The notes beneath the pieces were generated by a model. That model did no database searches. It was not told where the DNA came from and was given only the letters and a program-made list of their open reading frames with translations. Made by a program: the position numbers and the translations under genes. From contig CACZAK010000258.1 in NCBI GenBank assembly GCA_902779075.1, positions 1 through 11,973 of the forward strand: a stretch of DNA of 11,973 bases, read 5' to 3'. Position 1 is the stretch's first letter. The number at the start of each line of letters is the position of its first letter. This document shows positions 487 through 6,230 of the stretch, piece after piece. Source of the DNA: an uncultured bacterium (GTDB taxonomy: Bacteria > Verrucomicrobiota > Kiritimatiellia > RFP12 > UBA1067).

Positions 487-1851
487 CTATTCTGCGACGG
501 TGACGATCCACCACGGACCGGCGGTGCGGCCAAGGAGGGCGTTGAAGAACCAGTCCGGCACGTCGGCGAACGTGGTACCGTCCGCATCGCGCACCTGCTC
601 GCATACTTTTAGCGCTTCGGCCCCCCGCGTCGCACGAAACGCGGACCACGCGCCCGCGCCGTCGCTCTCGAGCGGCAGCGGCTCGATGTGCCAGCCCGTC
701 GCGCGCAGACAGTACGCCGCGCCGTGTACGCGGTGCGTCGGACGCGTCGTCCAGCGCAGGATCACCGTGCGACGCCCCGCCATGAAACGCCCGATCCGTC
801 CTGGAAAGTTCTGCGCGAACTTCTCTTCAAACTCGCTCTGCGGCTCTTCCACAAGCACGTCCCCGTCAAACGTTTCCGGCCACCCCGGGAACTGCGCCGT
901 TTCCGCGTCGTAAACAGTGGAACGAACAAAAGGTCGGCACACCATGCACAACGCGGCCACGGTGAAAAAGGCGGTCATCGCAAGAATGCGCCCCCATCCG
1001 CCCGTCTTCGGTGTCCGGTCATCACCGGCGCCCTTCTGCGCATTCCCTCCATGCGGCACGCACGCGACAAGCAGCAACGCCACCAGCAGGGCGATGCACC
1101 CCACGACCTCATGCGCCGCGCCGCCCAGCTTCAGACCCGTCGACGCAAACACTGTCAGCACCGCCACACGTGCGGCGTTGGCCAGACACACGGCCACGAC
1201 CGCAAGCGCACACACGCCAACCGTGCGTCCTGTCCGCAGACGCCACACCTGCGCGAGAACGAGAGCCAGCACGACGCCCGTTCCCAGCATCGCCACCCCC
1301 GCACACGGCGCATCGACCCAGACGGGAACGCCACCCACCGCGATTTCCATCCCGTTCCGGACCACCTCCAGCCCCGTGAGGCGCAGCAACGCCGTCGCCC
1401 CGAACGTGGACACCGCGCGAAGCGGCACGCCGAGGAACAAGTCCGCAATGAAAAGTGTCGGCAATCCCGCCACGGCCAGCCCCGCAAGCGGCGCCGGGAA
1501 CTCCCCTTGGTCGCGCGTAGCCGGCACGAGCAACGACACGCCCCCCAACACGCCAAACAGCCCGCACAGCGTGATTGGCAGAAAAGGCCTCGTTACCCAA
1601 TACGCCGCGAGACCGGACGCGGCCAGCGCGTATGCCCGCGTCGACGGACGCGCCGCCTTCCATCCGTTTCGCCGCCACGCATCCACGATGAACACCGCAA
1701 GCGCGGCCCACGCCGCCATCCCCGCGTCAAGCGGCTCGCCGATTCGCGCGAACCACCACGCCCAGAGCGAGAAGAGCGCACCTCCCCATGCGAACGCCGC
1801 CAGCGCCCTCTCCGCGACGTCCCTCACGTCAGGCGCGAACCTTCCTTGCAC
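487..1851 (-). CDS. Exosortase with C-terminal EpsI-like domain
   Basis: This is a 454-residue polytopic membrane protein. Residues 17-266 are mostly hydrophobic, with about eight helices. The exosortase/archaeosortase signature is complete: Cys183 in APCAGV, Arg228 in NAAR and His247 in AHEVVG, each at the edge of a membrane helix. Exosortases are believed to cut PEP-CTERM proteins at the membrane and pass them on for surface attachment. After another helix (288-306) comes a 150-residue soluble region with FPGWPETFDG, a Cys381 followed by RATGW, and a tryptophan-rich end, resembling the EpsI-like domain found beside or fused to exosortases. The start is GTG at 1851, overlapping the upstream VIT gene by 23 nt. 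A second GTG at 1827, four bases past the stop of the upstream gene, is equally possible. No clear ribosome site is seen, so translational coupling is likely. The exosortase family is sure; the subtype is not. Confidence 0.85.
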   Translation of the reverse strand: MQGRFAPDVRDVAERALAAFAWGGALFSLWAWWFARIGEPLDAGMAAWAALAVFIVDAWRRNGWKAARPSTRAYALAASGLAAYWVTRPFLPITLCGLFGVLGGVSLLVPATRDQGEFPAPLAGLAVAGLPTLFIADLFLGVPLRAVSTFGATALLRLTGLEVVRNGMEIAVGGVPVWVDAPCAGVAMLGTGVVLALVLAQVWRLRTGRTVGVCALAVVAVCLANAARVAVLTVFASTGLKLGGAAHEVVGCIALLVALLLVACVPHGGNAQKGAGDDRTPKTGGWGRILAMTAFFTVAALCMVCRPFVRSTVYDAETAQFPGWPETFDGDVLVEEPQSEFEEKFAQNFPGRIGRFMAGRRTVILRWTTRPTHRVHGAAYCLRATGWHIEPLPLESDGAGAWSAFRATRGAEALKVCEQVRDADGTTFADVPDWFFNALLGRTAGPWWIVTVAE

Positions 1852-4189
1852 GGAACATCCACGCGAAAAGGAGAACCAGCGCCGCCAAAATGAGACACAC
1901 GATCGATCCAGGCTCCGGGACGGTCGGCACGGAGGACGTCGTGGTCGGCACGGAATCCGCGTCCGCCGGCTTCAAGTTGTTCTGCTTGTACTGCTCCGCC
2001 GTCTCCAGCACCACCGCACCCGTGACGGGCGTGACGATCTGCCACGGCAGGGCAGTCTTCTGCGCCTTCTCGAGGCTGACGGGATCGCCTACGCGATATG
2101 TGCGCACCGCCTCTTCCGCCGCCCACAGCCGTCCGAGATGCCTTCCGGCCGGCACGGCATTGTCCGGCACGTCCGCGCGCGCCACGTTCGTGCGCGTCGC
2201 CTGCCACGTGGCAGCGCCCCATTTGGAGAAAACGCCCTCCAGAGCCGCGACGGCGTCGCCCTTGAGCGCAGCCGCAGTGCAGGAGATCACGGACGGACTG
2301 GATGCGAGCGAAGAGGAAATTTCGCACGTCCCCGGAGCAACCTGGCAGAGGACCATGCGGACATTCGCCGCGCCGGCGAGCTTCGCGGAGAGCACGTCCG
2401 CGGTTTGCGACACAACCGGCTGGACGGCGTGAATCCACACGAGCGCAGCGGGGTCGGGGCTCTTGGCAAGCGAGTCGAGAGCCCGCACGAGCGTCACGAG
2501 GTTGCAGCGTCCGCCCGCACAGGCGTGCGACTGGATTGCCTGTTCGAATGCGTGCGCGCGGCCCGTGTCGTTTGCTGGCGAAGAGACAGGAGTAATCGGG
2601 GCTTCGTCGTCCACGAGCCAGAGATCAACGGACACATCGGCGGGAATCGCGGCAAGTGCACGCACGGCATCCTTCGCGAAGAAAGGCTCCATCGCGACGG
2701 ACGAATCCAGCACCACGGCGACGCGCTTCGGCTTCCAGCCTGCCGCGCGGGACATGCGCTGCACGACGGCGCGGCCGATGATCGGGACGTACTTGTCCTC
2801 CACGTACACCGCCACGGGAACCGGAGGCTTTTCAAGCGCCTTCGTCTCGTCGGCTGGCAGACCAAGCAGATCGCCCGGAATGCTGAAATTCTGCGTCAGG
2901 ATTGCGGGGGCGGGAAGACGCGCCGTCTTACCGTCGTCCGAAAGTTCCAGCGGAACGGTCATGCCAATCCGCACCTTCATCTCCCCATTCGGCGGCACGG
3001 GGAAGCACTGCATCTGCACCTGGTCGGGTCCGCACACGTTCACCAGCACGGGATCGCGGCGGCGGCTCACGACGCTTTCGTACGCCCGGCGGACCTGTCC
3101 CTTCGTGCCGAACGCGGCCTCCCGCTCCTCGCCGTCGATCCAGAGCGTGAGGCGCGACACCACCCCGCCCGGCGGCAACGCGATGCGCGCGCGTGCCTCG
3201 CGCTGCTGGTAGCTGTCGTTGGCGAACACCAGCGTCCATTCGGCATAGCCGACGTTTCCGGGTGCGTCCACGGTCGTGGAATAGCTGGACCCCTTGAGCG
3301 AAAGACCGTCCACGACGCCTCCCATCTTCTCGCCGCCGATGAAACGGTCCCAGCTCAAACTCCGCCTCCCGCGACCGCCCCAGAAGTCAAACACAGTCTC
3401 AGGATCCTCGCCGGTCACGCGGTAGTAGATGAGCCGACGCTTCTCCATAGGGATGTCCGGCCTAAACGATGTCACCGCGGACCACAGCGCGAACCAATCG
3501 GCTCTTCCGCGATTACGCAGTTTCTTCCACAGCATCGCGTCGTCCGTCCAGACGCGCATCGTACGCAGCATGCGCACGCCCTTCGCCGACGACGCCGGAT
3601 CGTCCGAAGCCGCCAACCTCATGCCGTGTACCTCTATGCACATTTCCGCAAACACCGCGAGCCATGCAAGACCGGCCAATGCAAGTCCCCAGGCGAACCC
3701 CTTCACCTTCTGGCCTCCATCCAACCCGGCCTGCCTGTCGAGACTTCGCCTGAAGCCCATTGTCGCAAGCGTTGCAAACAGCGGCCCCGACGGCAGAAGC
3801 CCGATAAAACCCAAGCCAAAGTACCAGAACGCCAGGCAAAAGAAAATCGCGCCAATCGCTGAAAGCGGCAGAAACGCGAATGCATACACGACCGCGATGC
3901 CGAAGGAAAAACCGCACATCGCGCGCAGGAACTTGCTCCCGACTCCCCATCCCTTCAGGCAACACAGCCAGACAATGAAGTTCACCACCGGCACGGCACA
4001 CATCGCTGCGCACTGGAACACATTGCCGGTCAAGTCGCCGCCGAACGCCTCGGAGCAAATACCGGTGCTCATTTCCACGGCCACGGATGCCGCAGGCAGC
4101 ATCACGCCGAATATGAACGTCGTCACGGGATGCGACAGCCCCCTGAGCAGACGGGCGAAGAATCCTGGTCTTCTTTCTGAGTATTCCAT
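1829..4189 (-). CDS. VIT/vWA-domain membrane protein with PEP-CTERM sorting signal
   Basis: This is a 786-residue protein. The N-terminus (22-183) has about five membrane helices with CxxC-like cysteines at 76-77. Residues 300-415 match a VIT (vault/inter-alpha-trypsin) domain: a short beta strand run, LPPGGVVSRLTLWIDGEERE, an AY helix near 369-370, and a closing IPNGE/VRIGMTVPL-type strand. Residues 488-670 look like a vWA fold starting RVAVVLDSSVAM. Its metal site is degenerate: D495 and S497 are present but the last Ser of DxSxS is Ala499. After a Thr/Ser-rich linker the tail is VPEPGS (757-762), a hydrophobic helix (763-778) and RARKVRA, a classic exosortase recognition signal. Being next to and overlapping an exosortase gene, it is very likely that enzyme's own substrate. 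VIT/vWA proteins usually act in protein-protein contacts at membranes or surfaces; the job of this one is unknown. It starts 15 nt after the EF-G gene. Confidence 0.85.
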   Translation of the reverse strand: MEYSERRPGFFARLLRGLSHPVTTFIFGVMLPAASVAVEMSTGICSEAFGGDLTGNVFQCAAMCAVPVVNFIVWLCCLKGWGVGSKFLRAMCGFSFGIAVVYAFAFLPLSAIGAIFFCLAFWYFGLGFIGLLPSGPLFATLATMGFRRSLDRQAGLDGGQKVKGFAWGLALAGLAWLAVFAEMCIEVHGMRLAASDDPASSAKGVRMLRTMRVWTDDAMLWKKLRNRGRADWFALWSAVTSFRPDIPMEKRRLIYYRVTGEDPETVFDFWGGRGRRSLSWDRFIGGEKMGGVVDGLSLKGSSYSTTVDAPGNVGYAEWTLVFANDSYQQREARARIALPPGGVVSRLTLWIDGEEREAAFGTKGQVRRAYESVVSRRRDPVLVNVCGPDQVQMQCFPVPPNGEMKVRIGMTVPLELSDDGKTARLPAPAILTQNFSIPGDLLGLPADETKALEKPPVPVAVYVEDKYVPIIGRAVVQRMSRAAGWKPKRVAVVLDSSVAMEPFFAKDAVRALAAIPADVSVDLWLVDDEAPITPVSSPANDTGRAHAFEQAIQSHACAGGRCNLVTLVRALDSLAKSPDPAALVWIHAVQPVVSQTADVLSAKLAGAANVRMVLCQVAPGTCEISSSLASSPSVISCTAAALKGDAVAALEGVFSKWGAATWQATRTNVARADVPDNAVPAGRHLGRLWAAEEAVRTYRVGDPVSLEKAQKTALPWQIVTPVTGAVVLETAEQYKQNNLKPADADSVPTTTSSVPTVPEPGSIVCLILAALVLLFAWMFRARKVRA

Positions 4190-4204: not shown

Positions 4205-6230
4205 TTAGCGGGAGAGCAGCTCTTCGCGCACGGCACGGGGGGCGAGGTCAAAGGTGTCCGGTTCCATCGAGTAGGACGCTCGACCTTTCGTAAGCGAGCG
4301 AATGGCCGTGGCATAGCCAAACATCTGCGCCATCGGGACGCGGGCGTGCACGATCTGCATGTCGCCGCGCTGCTCCATGTCGAGCACCGTGCCGCGACGC
4401 GCGTTGAGGTCGCCCAGCACTTCGCCCACGCTCTCCGGCGGGGTCGTGATCTCAAGCTTCATGATCGGCTCGAGGAACTCCGGCGCGGCAGCCTCGGCCG
4501 CCTCGCGGAAGCCCATCATGGCCGCCCCGCGCAGGGCGATTTCATCAGAAACTTCGGGATCGACCAGCTCCATACCCGTGACGGCAGCGGAGAGGTCGGT
4601 CATCGGGTAGCGCGCGAGGACGCCCGTCATCACACCGTCCATGAGCGCCTGTTCGAGGCACGCGGAGAGCTTCGGGTCCGGGAGTTCGTTCAGCACGTCG
4701 CGTGCGACCTTCACCTCACGCCCCTTCCCGCGTTCAAGCGGCTTCACCTCAACGGTCAGCGTCACGGCATGGCGCTTGCCGCCGAGTTCGCGGTCAAACG
4801 TGAACGCCTTCGCGGCCGGCGCGGTCACGGTCTCCAAGTAGCTCACCATCGGCTTGCCGACGTTCGCCGCACACTTGAACTCGCGCTTGAGGCGGTCCAC
4901 GAGGATTTCAAGATGGAGTTCGCCCATGCCAGAGAGGATCGTCTGTCCAGTCTCTTCGTCCTGGCGTACCTGACACGTGGGGTCTTCGGCCGCGAGCTCG
5001 TTCATCGCGTCCACGAGTTTGTCCTTGTCCGCCCCGCTCTTCGGTTCGATCGCGAGGAACATGACGGGTTGGGGCGCGGTGATGCGTTCAAGGTAGCAGG
5101 GCTTCATCTCGGCGCAGAGCGTGTCGCCGGTCGTCGCGTCCTTGAGGCCCACGATCGCGCCGATGTCGCCGGCGCGCAGTTCGTCCACCTCCGTGCGGTC
5201 GTCGGCGAAGAGTCGCACGATCTTCATCACGCGCTCGCGCTTGCGCGTGCGCGGGTTGAACACGTTCGCGCCCTTCTTGAGGACGCCGCCGTAGACGCGC
5301 ACGAAGAAGAGGCGGCCGTAGGTGTCGGACGCGATCTTGAAGACGAGCGCGGTGAGAAGTTCCTGCGGGTCGTGCTTGCGCGTGACGGGGGCCTCGGACT
5401 TGAGGTCCGTCGCCGCGACGGGCGGACGGTCCGTCGGCGCGGGGAGGTAGTCGACCACCGCGTCGAGGAGCGGCTGGATGCCCTTGTCCTTGAACGCGGT
5501 GCCGCAGAGGACGGGCACGAACGCGCCCGCCACCACCTGGCGGCGAATCGCGCCGCGCAGTTCGTCCGCCGTGAGGTCGCCGTTCTCGAGGTACGCCTCC
5601 ATCACGCCTTCGTCGAGGTCGGCGATCTTCTCGCACAGTTCGGCGCGCGCGAGCTCCGCCTCGTCCTTCAGCTCGGCGGGCACGTCGCCAACCGTGAAGT
5701 TCTTGCCCTCGCTCGCCTCGTCGTAAATGATCCCCTTCATTTCAAGGAGGTCCACGACGCCCTTGAAGCCGTCTTCCTTGCCGATGGGCAGTTCCACGGG
5801 ACACGCATTCGCCTTCAGCTTCGTGCGCAGCTCGTCCACCACGCGCGTGAAGTCCGCGCCCATGCGGTCCATCTTGTTCACGAACGCGACGCGCGGCACG
5901 CGGTAGCGGTCCGCCTGACGCCACACCGTCTCGCTCTGCGGCTGCACGCCGCCGACTGCGCAGAACACGCACACCGCGCCATCGAGGACACGGAGCGAGC
6001 GCTCCACCTCCATCGTGAAGTCGACGTGTCCGGGCGTGTCGATGATGTTGACGGTGCGCCCCTTCCACTCGCAGGTGATGGCGGCGGACTGGATCGTGCT
6101 CGTGCACTTCGCCGGGCTTGTGGATCTTGCCCGTGTAGAAGAGGATGCGCTCGGTCGTCGTGGTTTTGCCCGCGTCTATGTGGGCCACGATGCCGATGTT
6201 GCGTACGTTGGAAAGTGGCTTGTCGTCCAT
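4205..6230 (-). pseudogene. fusA: Elongation factor G, frame broken by a 47-nt deletion in switch I
   Basis: EF-G is the GTPase that moves tRNA and mRNA through the ribosome. The N-terminus from 6230 has the P-loop AHIDAGKT (16-23) and continues to GEVHE (40-44). The frame then fails at 6098. In the +1 frame the protein resumes at once with [22 protein letters not shown] and all later domains to the stop at 4205, with no further lesion. In EF-G, 16 residues (GxATMDWMEQEQERGI type) separate these two parts; here one base remains, so 47 nt are missing. Restoring them gives 690 residues, the usual EF-G length. The lost segment is switch I, essential for GTP-dependent function. Starting at the internal Met (6013) would give a 602-residue protein lacking the P-loop, switch I and the DTPGH motif. 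The gene lies 6 nt after ntpK without a ribosome site, outside a str operon. It may be a second EF-G copy, or the gap may be an assembly error. Confidence 0.85.

Follow-up and report, generated by a model that had tools for sequence, protein, structure and literature searches.

Analogous systems of an exosortase and a VIT protein are named in NCBIfam as XrtN and XrtK. According to the available part of PMC3237569, the VIT/vWA family carries GlyGly-CTERM, or LPXTG beside a dedicated sortase, a VIT/vWA protein with PEP-CTERM occurs together with an exosortase in Verrucomicrobium spinosum, and a dedicated system is defined as an enzyme with a single, usually adjacent target in the genome. In the same part of this source, the Gram-negative sortase TIGR03784 and its LPXTG VIT/vWA protein likewise represent one enzyme per adjacent VIT/vWA protein. 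As far as the partly available sources go, PEP-CTERM and exosortase genes are associated with flocs, motility, and biofilm, and XrtF, another exosortase type, with surface colonisation (PMC10936215). Dedicated VIT sorting systems are already published, and the gene pair described here, located on contig CACZAK010000258.1 (the window, i.e., the whole analysed stretch of 11,973 nucleotides), is an unnamed version of this known kind, which differs from the TIGR03784 system in that the sortase is unrelated to exosortases and recognises an LPXTG signal. We consider it likely, with a probability of roughly 0.75, that both genes form a dedicated protein-sorting cassette in which the linked exosortase handles solely the adjoining VIT/vWA protein. 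The features of the pair are as follows (L and G numbers denote loci and genomes throughout).

487..1851, minus strand: exosortase fused to an EpsI-like domain, 454 residues (sequence, profile matches)
1057..1779, minus strand: exosortase domain, residues 25-265 (PF09721, 1.7e-21)
1303-1305, 1168-1170, and 1111-1113, minus strand: Cys183, Arg228, and His247, exosortase residues kept in 49 of 49 sequences
490..900, minus strand: EpsI-like domain, residues 318-454, with His376 at 724-726 and Cys381 at 709-711
1829..1851, minus strand: overlap of substrate and exosortase genes, 23 nt, identical in L020, L021, and L022
1829..4189, minus strand: VIT/vWA PEP-CTERM substrate, 786 residues (sequence, profile matches, AF2 model)
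3611..4129, minus strand: N-terminal membrane domain of the substrate, residues 21-193, with five or six hydrophobic helices (hydropathy and charge over 89 sequences, AF2 helices)
2966..3268, minus strand: VIT domain of the substrate, residues 308-408 (PF08487, 43.1 bits)
2213..2740, minus strand: vWA fold of the substrate, residues 484-659 (AF2 model and VIA-align)
1832..1951, minus strand: sorting tail of the substrate, SVPTTTSSVPTVPEP-helix-RARKVRA, residues 747-786, with PEP at 1910-1918

Linkage of the two genes was followed in VIT-anchored loci and from three further anchors, namely the family of G001, the phylum, and the order of G144. A total of 79 VIT-anchored loci was drawn from the best 80 of 257 relatives; an exosortase is situated directly downstream in 43 of these, 30 lack it despite at least 1.4 kb of available sequence, and six are cut. 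Within the family of G001, the nearest genome compared (96 genomes; E<=1e-20 for the enzyme profile, E<=1e-50 for the VIT profile), the enzyme profile matches 24 genomes, 15 at 200 bits or more and nine only at 73-84 bits, the latter being read as general exosortases. In all 15 genomes with a strong match the VIT gene is adjacent by coordinates. The VIT profile matches 16 genomes, of which the sixteenth, G392, contains solely a 322-residue VIT fragment, and co-occurrence of enzyme and VIT is pronounced (Fisher p 1.2e-16). The cassette is patchy within genus g1, half of whose genomes (8 of 16) yielded VIT, with incomplete assemblies partly responsible.

A search of the phylum with the enzyme revealed at least 19 carriers of the clade enzyme in 387 genomes, a lower bound because four candidates were scored per genome; four of them (G001, G079, G073, and G374) were already known from the VIT searches. 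All 19 carry a VIT/vWA PEP-CTERM gene directly upstream, seven of the integral and 12 of a TIGR03788-like type (245-283 bits on partial proteins), the latter with PEP tails in 12 out of 12. In the order of G144, which we take to be the Burkholderiales and whose central genome had been picked as paired, the XrtQ model gave 10 matches in 200 genomes. For the five with at least 128 bits a VIT/vWA gene is located upstream, integral in three (including G144) and of the TIGR03788 type in two, and the remaining five (20-22 bits) have no VIT match. The three anchors agree on the dedication of the enzyme to a VIT/vWA gene, in support of the dedicated pair proposed in the earlier note on this stretch. 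The homologous exosortase devoid of a VIT partner, named there as a counter-case, was not seen among the 19 phylum and 15 family carriers, although orphan VIT genes do exist.

A single VIT copy was found in 33 out of 34 genomes (E<=1e-50). G127 (contigs C34 and C116) contains two, one adjoining an exosortase and one orphan. G150, a distant metagenome-assembled genome (MAG), has one exosortase (E<=0.001) and one PEP-CTERM match (E<=0.05), which is the adjoining VIT protein.

The exosortase gene is situated downstream of the substrate gene. Its product matches PF09721, the EpsH domain, with 77.2 bits (cut-off 25.7) and the general signature TIGR04178 with 31.5 bits (cut-off 23), which assigns it to the exosortase/archaeosortase superfamily; none of the named NCBIfam exosortase types reached its cut-off. 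The earlier reading of a complete exosortase with an EpsI-like tail is confirmed, as is its overlap with a protein of membrane, VIT, vWA, and VPEP-helix-basic regions. His376 and Cys381 of the EpsI-like domain are invariant in 49 out of 49 sequences as well. PF11984 (EpsI, DUF3485; cut-off 26.1) does not match the window enzyme, and the split EpsI-like genes of sister loci scored 14.4 bits (L032) or gave no match (L052 and L100). Homology to EpsI was established via these sister genes (hhalign 94.9%, E 4.7e-8), the invariant Cys being aligned and the invariant His lying at the identical spacing of five, but differently gapped. Among the 43 paired loci, the EpsI-like part is fused to the exosortase in 20, as in the window, and encoded by a separate gene in 21; L024 is cut, and L028 is without a visible EpsI-like gene in 7.9 kb. 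Split genes occur in 11 of 14 Pseudomonadota loci and also in L031/L032 from the window's side of the tree. As a fusion, the EpsI-like part is mobile.

The substrate looks like a large adhesion-type protein that is the apparent private substrate of the adjoining exosortase. VP and PEP of its tail are invariant across 89 sequences, and the anatomy of motif, helix, and basic cluster is present despite a PF07589 (PEP-CTERM) score of 15.2 bits, below the cut-off of 20.7. Its best NCBIfam match is TIGR04477 (108.7 bits, cut-off 250), and no NCBIfam VIT-protein cut-off was reached. The AF2 model matches inter-alpha-inhibitor heavy chain (ITIH) 1 (PDB 6fpy) with a whole-chain TM score of 0.33-0.41 and a root-mean-square deviation of 8-10; this animal protein has neither sorting helix nor exosortase, and the shared fold shows no function. 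The vWA fold of the window protein contains a MIDAS-like DSSVA without the second Ser. Metal binding as a rule was rejected, since DxSxS occurs in 27 of 89 sequences and is missing in the window. A HAAS-like N-terminal extension was detected below cut-off in three of eight proteins scanned, the orphans L040 and L058 and the paired L071, with the best score for L071 (24.8 bits, cut-off 27).

The clade of the window enzyme is allied to XrtQ, carries no family name, and is present under record titles from at least eight phyla. The enzyme tree contains 46 integral and 14 TIGR03788 partners and requires three to four label changes, one of them forced by starred branches. VIT searches had supplied 42 of these 46 integral partners, which are therefore no test of exclusiveness. 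On the tree of VIT proteins, six changes account for the paired label, against a shuffled mean of 26.1. In the open-access literature no account was found of this clade or its VIT/vWA neighbourhood in every enzyme-anchored case, nor of two classes of substrate within a single enzyme tree or an EpsI-like part that is either fused or split, but absence from such word searches, which also missed PMC3237569, carries little weight.

Considering the named systems, it appears unlikely that the window system is a divergent member of XrtQ, XrtT, or XrtN, with the existing models drawn too narrowly. The top named exosortase for the enzyme, which was compared alone, is XrtT (NF033770; 83.5 bits), with a match spanning residues 119-399 and thus running into the EpsI-like region, followed by XrtQ (NF012182; 75.9 bits). 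These are indeed the best models, but both scores lie far below the cut-offs of 250 and 270, as does that of XrtN (46 bits, cut-off 200). Closest in layout are two enzymes found with the XrtQ model, L109 of G321 (366 bits, above cut-off) and L110 of G332 (208 bits, below), which share with the window the exosortase tree, a VIT/vWA gene upstream, and an EpsI-like third component. Their partners, however, are a different VIT protein of the TIGR03788 type (423 and 438 bits), and in case of L110 the VIT domain starts at residue 53, leaving no room for the long membrane part of the window type, whereas the start of the L109 partner is unsure. The enzyme tree itself has a weak backbone and includes no curated XrtT or XrtN member. 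In L109 and L110, the partner of the XrtQ-model exosortase has a PEP tail; TIGR03788 is otherwise named as a sortase target.

Membership in XrtN or XrtK was rejected, because enzyme and substrate scores are below the cut-offs (XrtK: 12.4 bits, cut-off 55). The likeness to these systems suggested in the earlier note holds for the substrate, which is kin to XrtN-type VIT proteins through TIGR04477 (sorted_by_XrtN), the nearest named VIT family; for the enzyme it does not, the closest named types being XrtT and XrtQ. TIGR04286 (MSEP-CTERM, XrtK) gave 35.1 bits over the VIT region (cut-off 150), and this model also matches the membrane region in relatives of the window substrate. A separate subtype, as proposed earlier, agrees with an enzyme below all named exosortase cut-offs, but two of its presumed marks had to be given up: the EpsI fusion, because fused and split forms are found in the numbers given above (20 and 21), and double anchoring, because the named MSEP-CTERM model covers that region as well.

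Several observations weigh against a dedicated cassette. G001 carries a further exosortase (172 bits) along with 15 additional PEP-CTERM proteins above cut-off; the earlier note had named such a genome as a counter-case, and its single substrate does not hold there. G135 (L021, VIT 95% identical) has the dedicated exosortase alone and nevertheless eight PEP-CTERM matches, for which an incomplete assembly could be the cause. The VIT protein as sole PEP-CTERM protein was rejected due to these two genomes. G136 holds an unplaced third exosortase fragment, and the completeness of the MAG G150 is unstated. With regard to the definition in the available part of PMC3237569, the genes are adjacent in the window, G001 has other PEP-CTERM proteins and the second exosortase, and G150 agrees with it at the cut-offs used. 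The 30 orphan loci point in the same direction: all 18 orphan-VIT genomes tested have exosortases elsewhere, and therefore a general enzyme can probably process the VIT protein family. Path lengths of enzyme and substrate correlate (r 0.91, 42 pairs), but without a species-tree control, and linked genes travel together; the nearest neighbour agrees in both trees for only 19 of 42 rows.

It is nonetheless improbable that the linked exosortase is non-specific, with either enzyme processing VIT and other PEP-CTERM proteins and adjacency reflecting historical linkage. The coexistence of orphan VIT homologues with other exosortases in 18 out of 18 genomes favours this reading, and orphan tails, with 1.37 Gly compared to 0.5 in paired ones, are closer to general tails. 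On the other hand, every clade enzyme of the phylum (19/19) and family (15/15) carriers has its VIT/vWA neighbour, G150 shows, at the cut-offs used, neither a further substrate nor a further enzyme, and VIT and general tails differ within one genome, G001. There, reading 14 of the 15 additional PEP-CTERM tails showed them to be uniform, Gly-rich, and unlike the VIT tail; since they represent another type, the pairing of enzyme and VIT survives their presence. An additional exosortase is present in 14 of 16 paired genomes. Paired VIT tails contain on average 0.5 Gly (n=42) and general PEP-CTERM tails 2.8 (n=28), and the basic cluster follows 18 and 15 residues on, respectively, the 28 general tails being high-scoring PF07589 matches passed through a hydrophobic-core filter, 13 of them from one genome, which tempers the comparison. 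The motif [VI]PxxPEP occurs in 40 of 42 paired VIT, 24 of 30 orphan VIT, and none of 28 general tails; as the orphans retain it, the motif is characteristic of the VIT protein and not of the enzyme, which also speaks against dedication.

A role of the VIT protein as partner or regulator, rather than cargo, of the exosortase, with the tail as an uncut docking helix, is suggested by the multi-pass N-terminus, the single VIT gene per enzyme, and the overlapping genes, but is very improbable in view of the motif-helix-basic anatomy with invariant PEP, the PEP tails on TIGR03788-type proteins of sister systems (12/12), and, in the available part of PMC3237569, VIT/vWA proteins with LPXTG, GlyGly-CTERM, or PEP-CTERM and cognate enzymes.

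Anatomy, linkage, co-occurrence, and tail difference are computational observations. As for sidedness, the charge patterns of both proteins predict a periplasmic position of VIT/vWA, VPEP, the exosortase active site, and the EpsI-like domain, and the topology check proposed in the earlier note thus came out in favour of a periplasmic VPEP. For the dedicated cassette we infer cleavage, specificity, and transpeptidation by the linked exosortase. The substrate would be inserted via its N-terminal helices, with the ITIH heavy-chain-like VIT/vWA part in the periplasm and the C-terminal helix anchored by its basic tail in the cytoplasm. The linked exosortase, with its Cys-Arg-His site and fused EpsI-like domain presumably facing the periplasm, would recognise solely the tail of this VIT/vWA protein, cut at or near VPEP, and join the C-terminus so formed to an acceptor, which is probably a glycan or glycolipid of the envelope. 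The N-terminus would remain anchored in the inner membrane. The other PEP-CTERM proteins would be served by another exosortase of the same cell, a general one.

The window resembles gut bacteria of the Kiritimatiellae type, its nearest loci bearing RUG names or ruminant titles. The pair is preceded on the minus strand by rpoA-rplQ-cysE-DUF362-V-ATPase D/I/K-fusA; rpoA, rplQ, and V-ATPase subunit D were identified by reading translations. This flank was rejected as part of the system, since the order occurs in just L021 and L022 of 79 VIT loci (tblastn). In L020, the nearest locus (VIT 97% identical), none of the window's flanking genes was found by tblastn; either the cassette's surroundings vary even among closely related genomes, or this reflects a misjoined contig. 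An exopolysaccharide cluster as companion was rejected as well: considering genes of at least 100 residues within 6 kb in 38 paired loci, no gene cluster occurs in more than six, and judged by eye the largest ones resemble common signalling genes or antisense frames. In the window, fusA (4205-6230) is split by a frameshift into the overlapping open reading frames (ORFs) 4205-6013 and 5742-6230, probably an assembly error; in L021 and L022, fusA is one 692-residue frame. A small ORF of 102 residues at 3-311 on the plus strand, starting from base 3, has no Pfam match, and a similar sequence (87% identity) is present in L022.

Orphan VIT proteins are common in Verrucomicrobiota/Lentisphaerota. 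In 14 of 29 orphan loci examined, VIT is preceded by a small gene, and these small genes form one cluster. One member of this cluster (L051:7202-7708) is a PadR (63 bits), and L050 combines the small upstream gene with downstream exosortase and EpsI-like genes. Exosortases of other architectures were also encountered. In L114 (G100:C249), as in further genomes of its class, exosortase domains lie within open frames of about 1340-1470 residues, with few longer or shorter; in L114 the exosortase domain comes first, followed by TPR repeats. L111 and L112, from the orphan-VIT genomes G117 and G121, contain a divergent exosortase with two neighbours, an EpsI/DUF3485 gene and a TPR protein weakly similar to PrsT; these exosortases are unlinked to VIT and fall outside the clade in the enzyme tree.

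In ITIH heavy chains, according to the available part of PMC7170535, the C-terminal pro-domain is lost and the C-terminus is ester-linked to N-acetylgalactosamine, a parallel to the processing of the substrate that is suggestive only. It is tempting to speculate, though doubtful as yet, that one clade in at least eight phyla has VIT/vWA proteins as its sole substrates and has changed over between two dissimilar kinds of them. Its conserved job might be to attach an ITIH-like protein covalently, by the C-terminus, to a glycan at the surface, a parallel to animal heavy chains on chondroitin/hyaluronan, the integral version tying the glycan to the inner membrane; such a job is suggested because sortase and GlyGly-CTERM signals are, in the partly available literature, also published on VIT/vWA proteins. 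The VIT/vWA gene beside the clade enzyme in each enzyme-anchored case seen provides a rule of specificity for a family that carries no name. To our knowledge, the attachment target of exosortases and the role of EpsI are open questions. Comprising a single enzyme, its substrate, and a single accessory domain, the cassette is about the smallest setting for testing the exosortase acceptor and the role of EpsI, and in the MAG G150 it appears to be the entire exosortase system.

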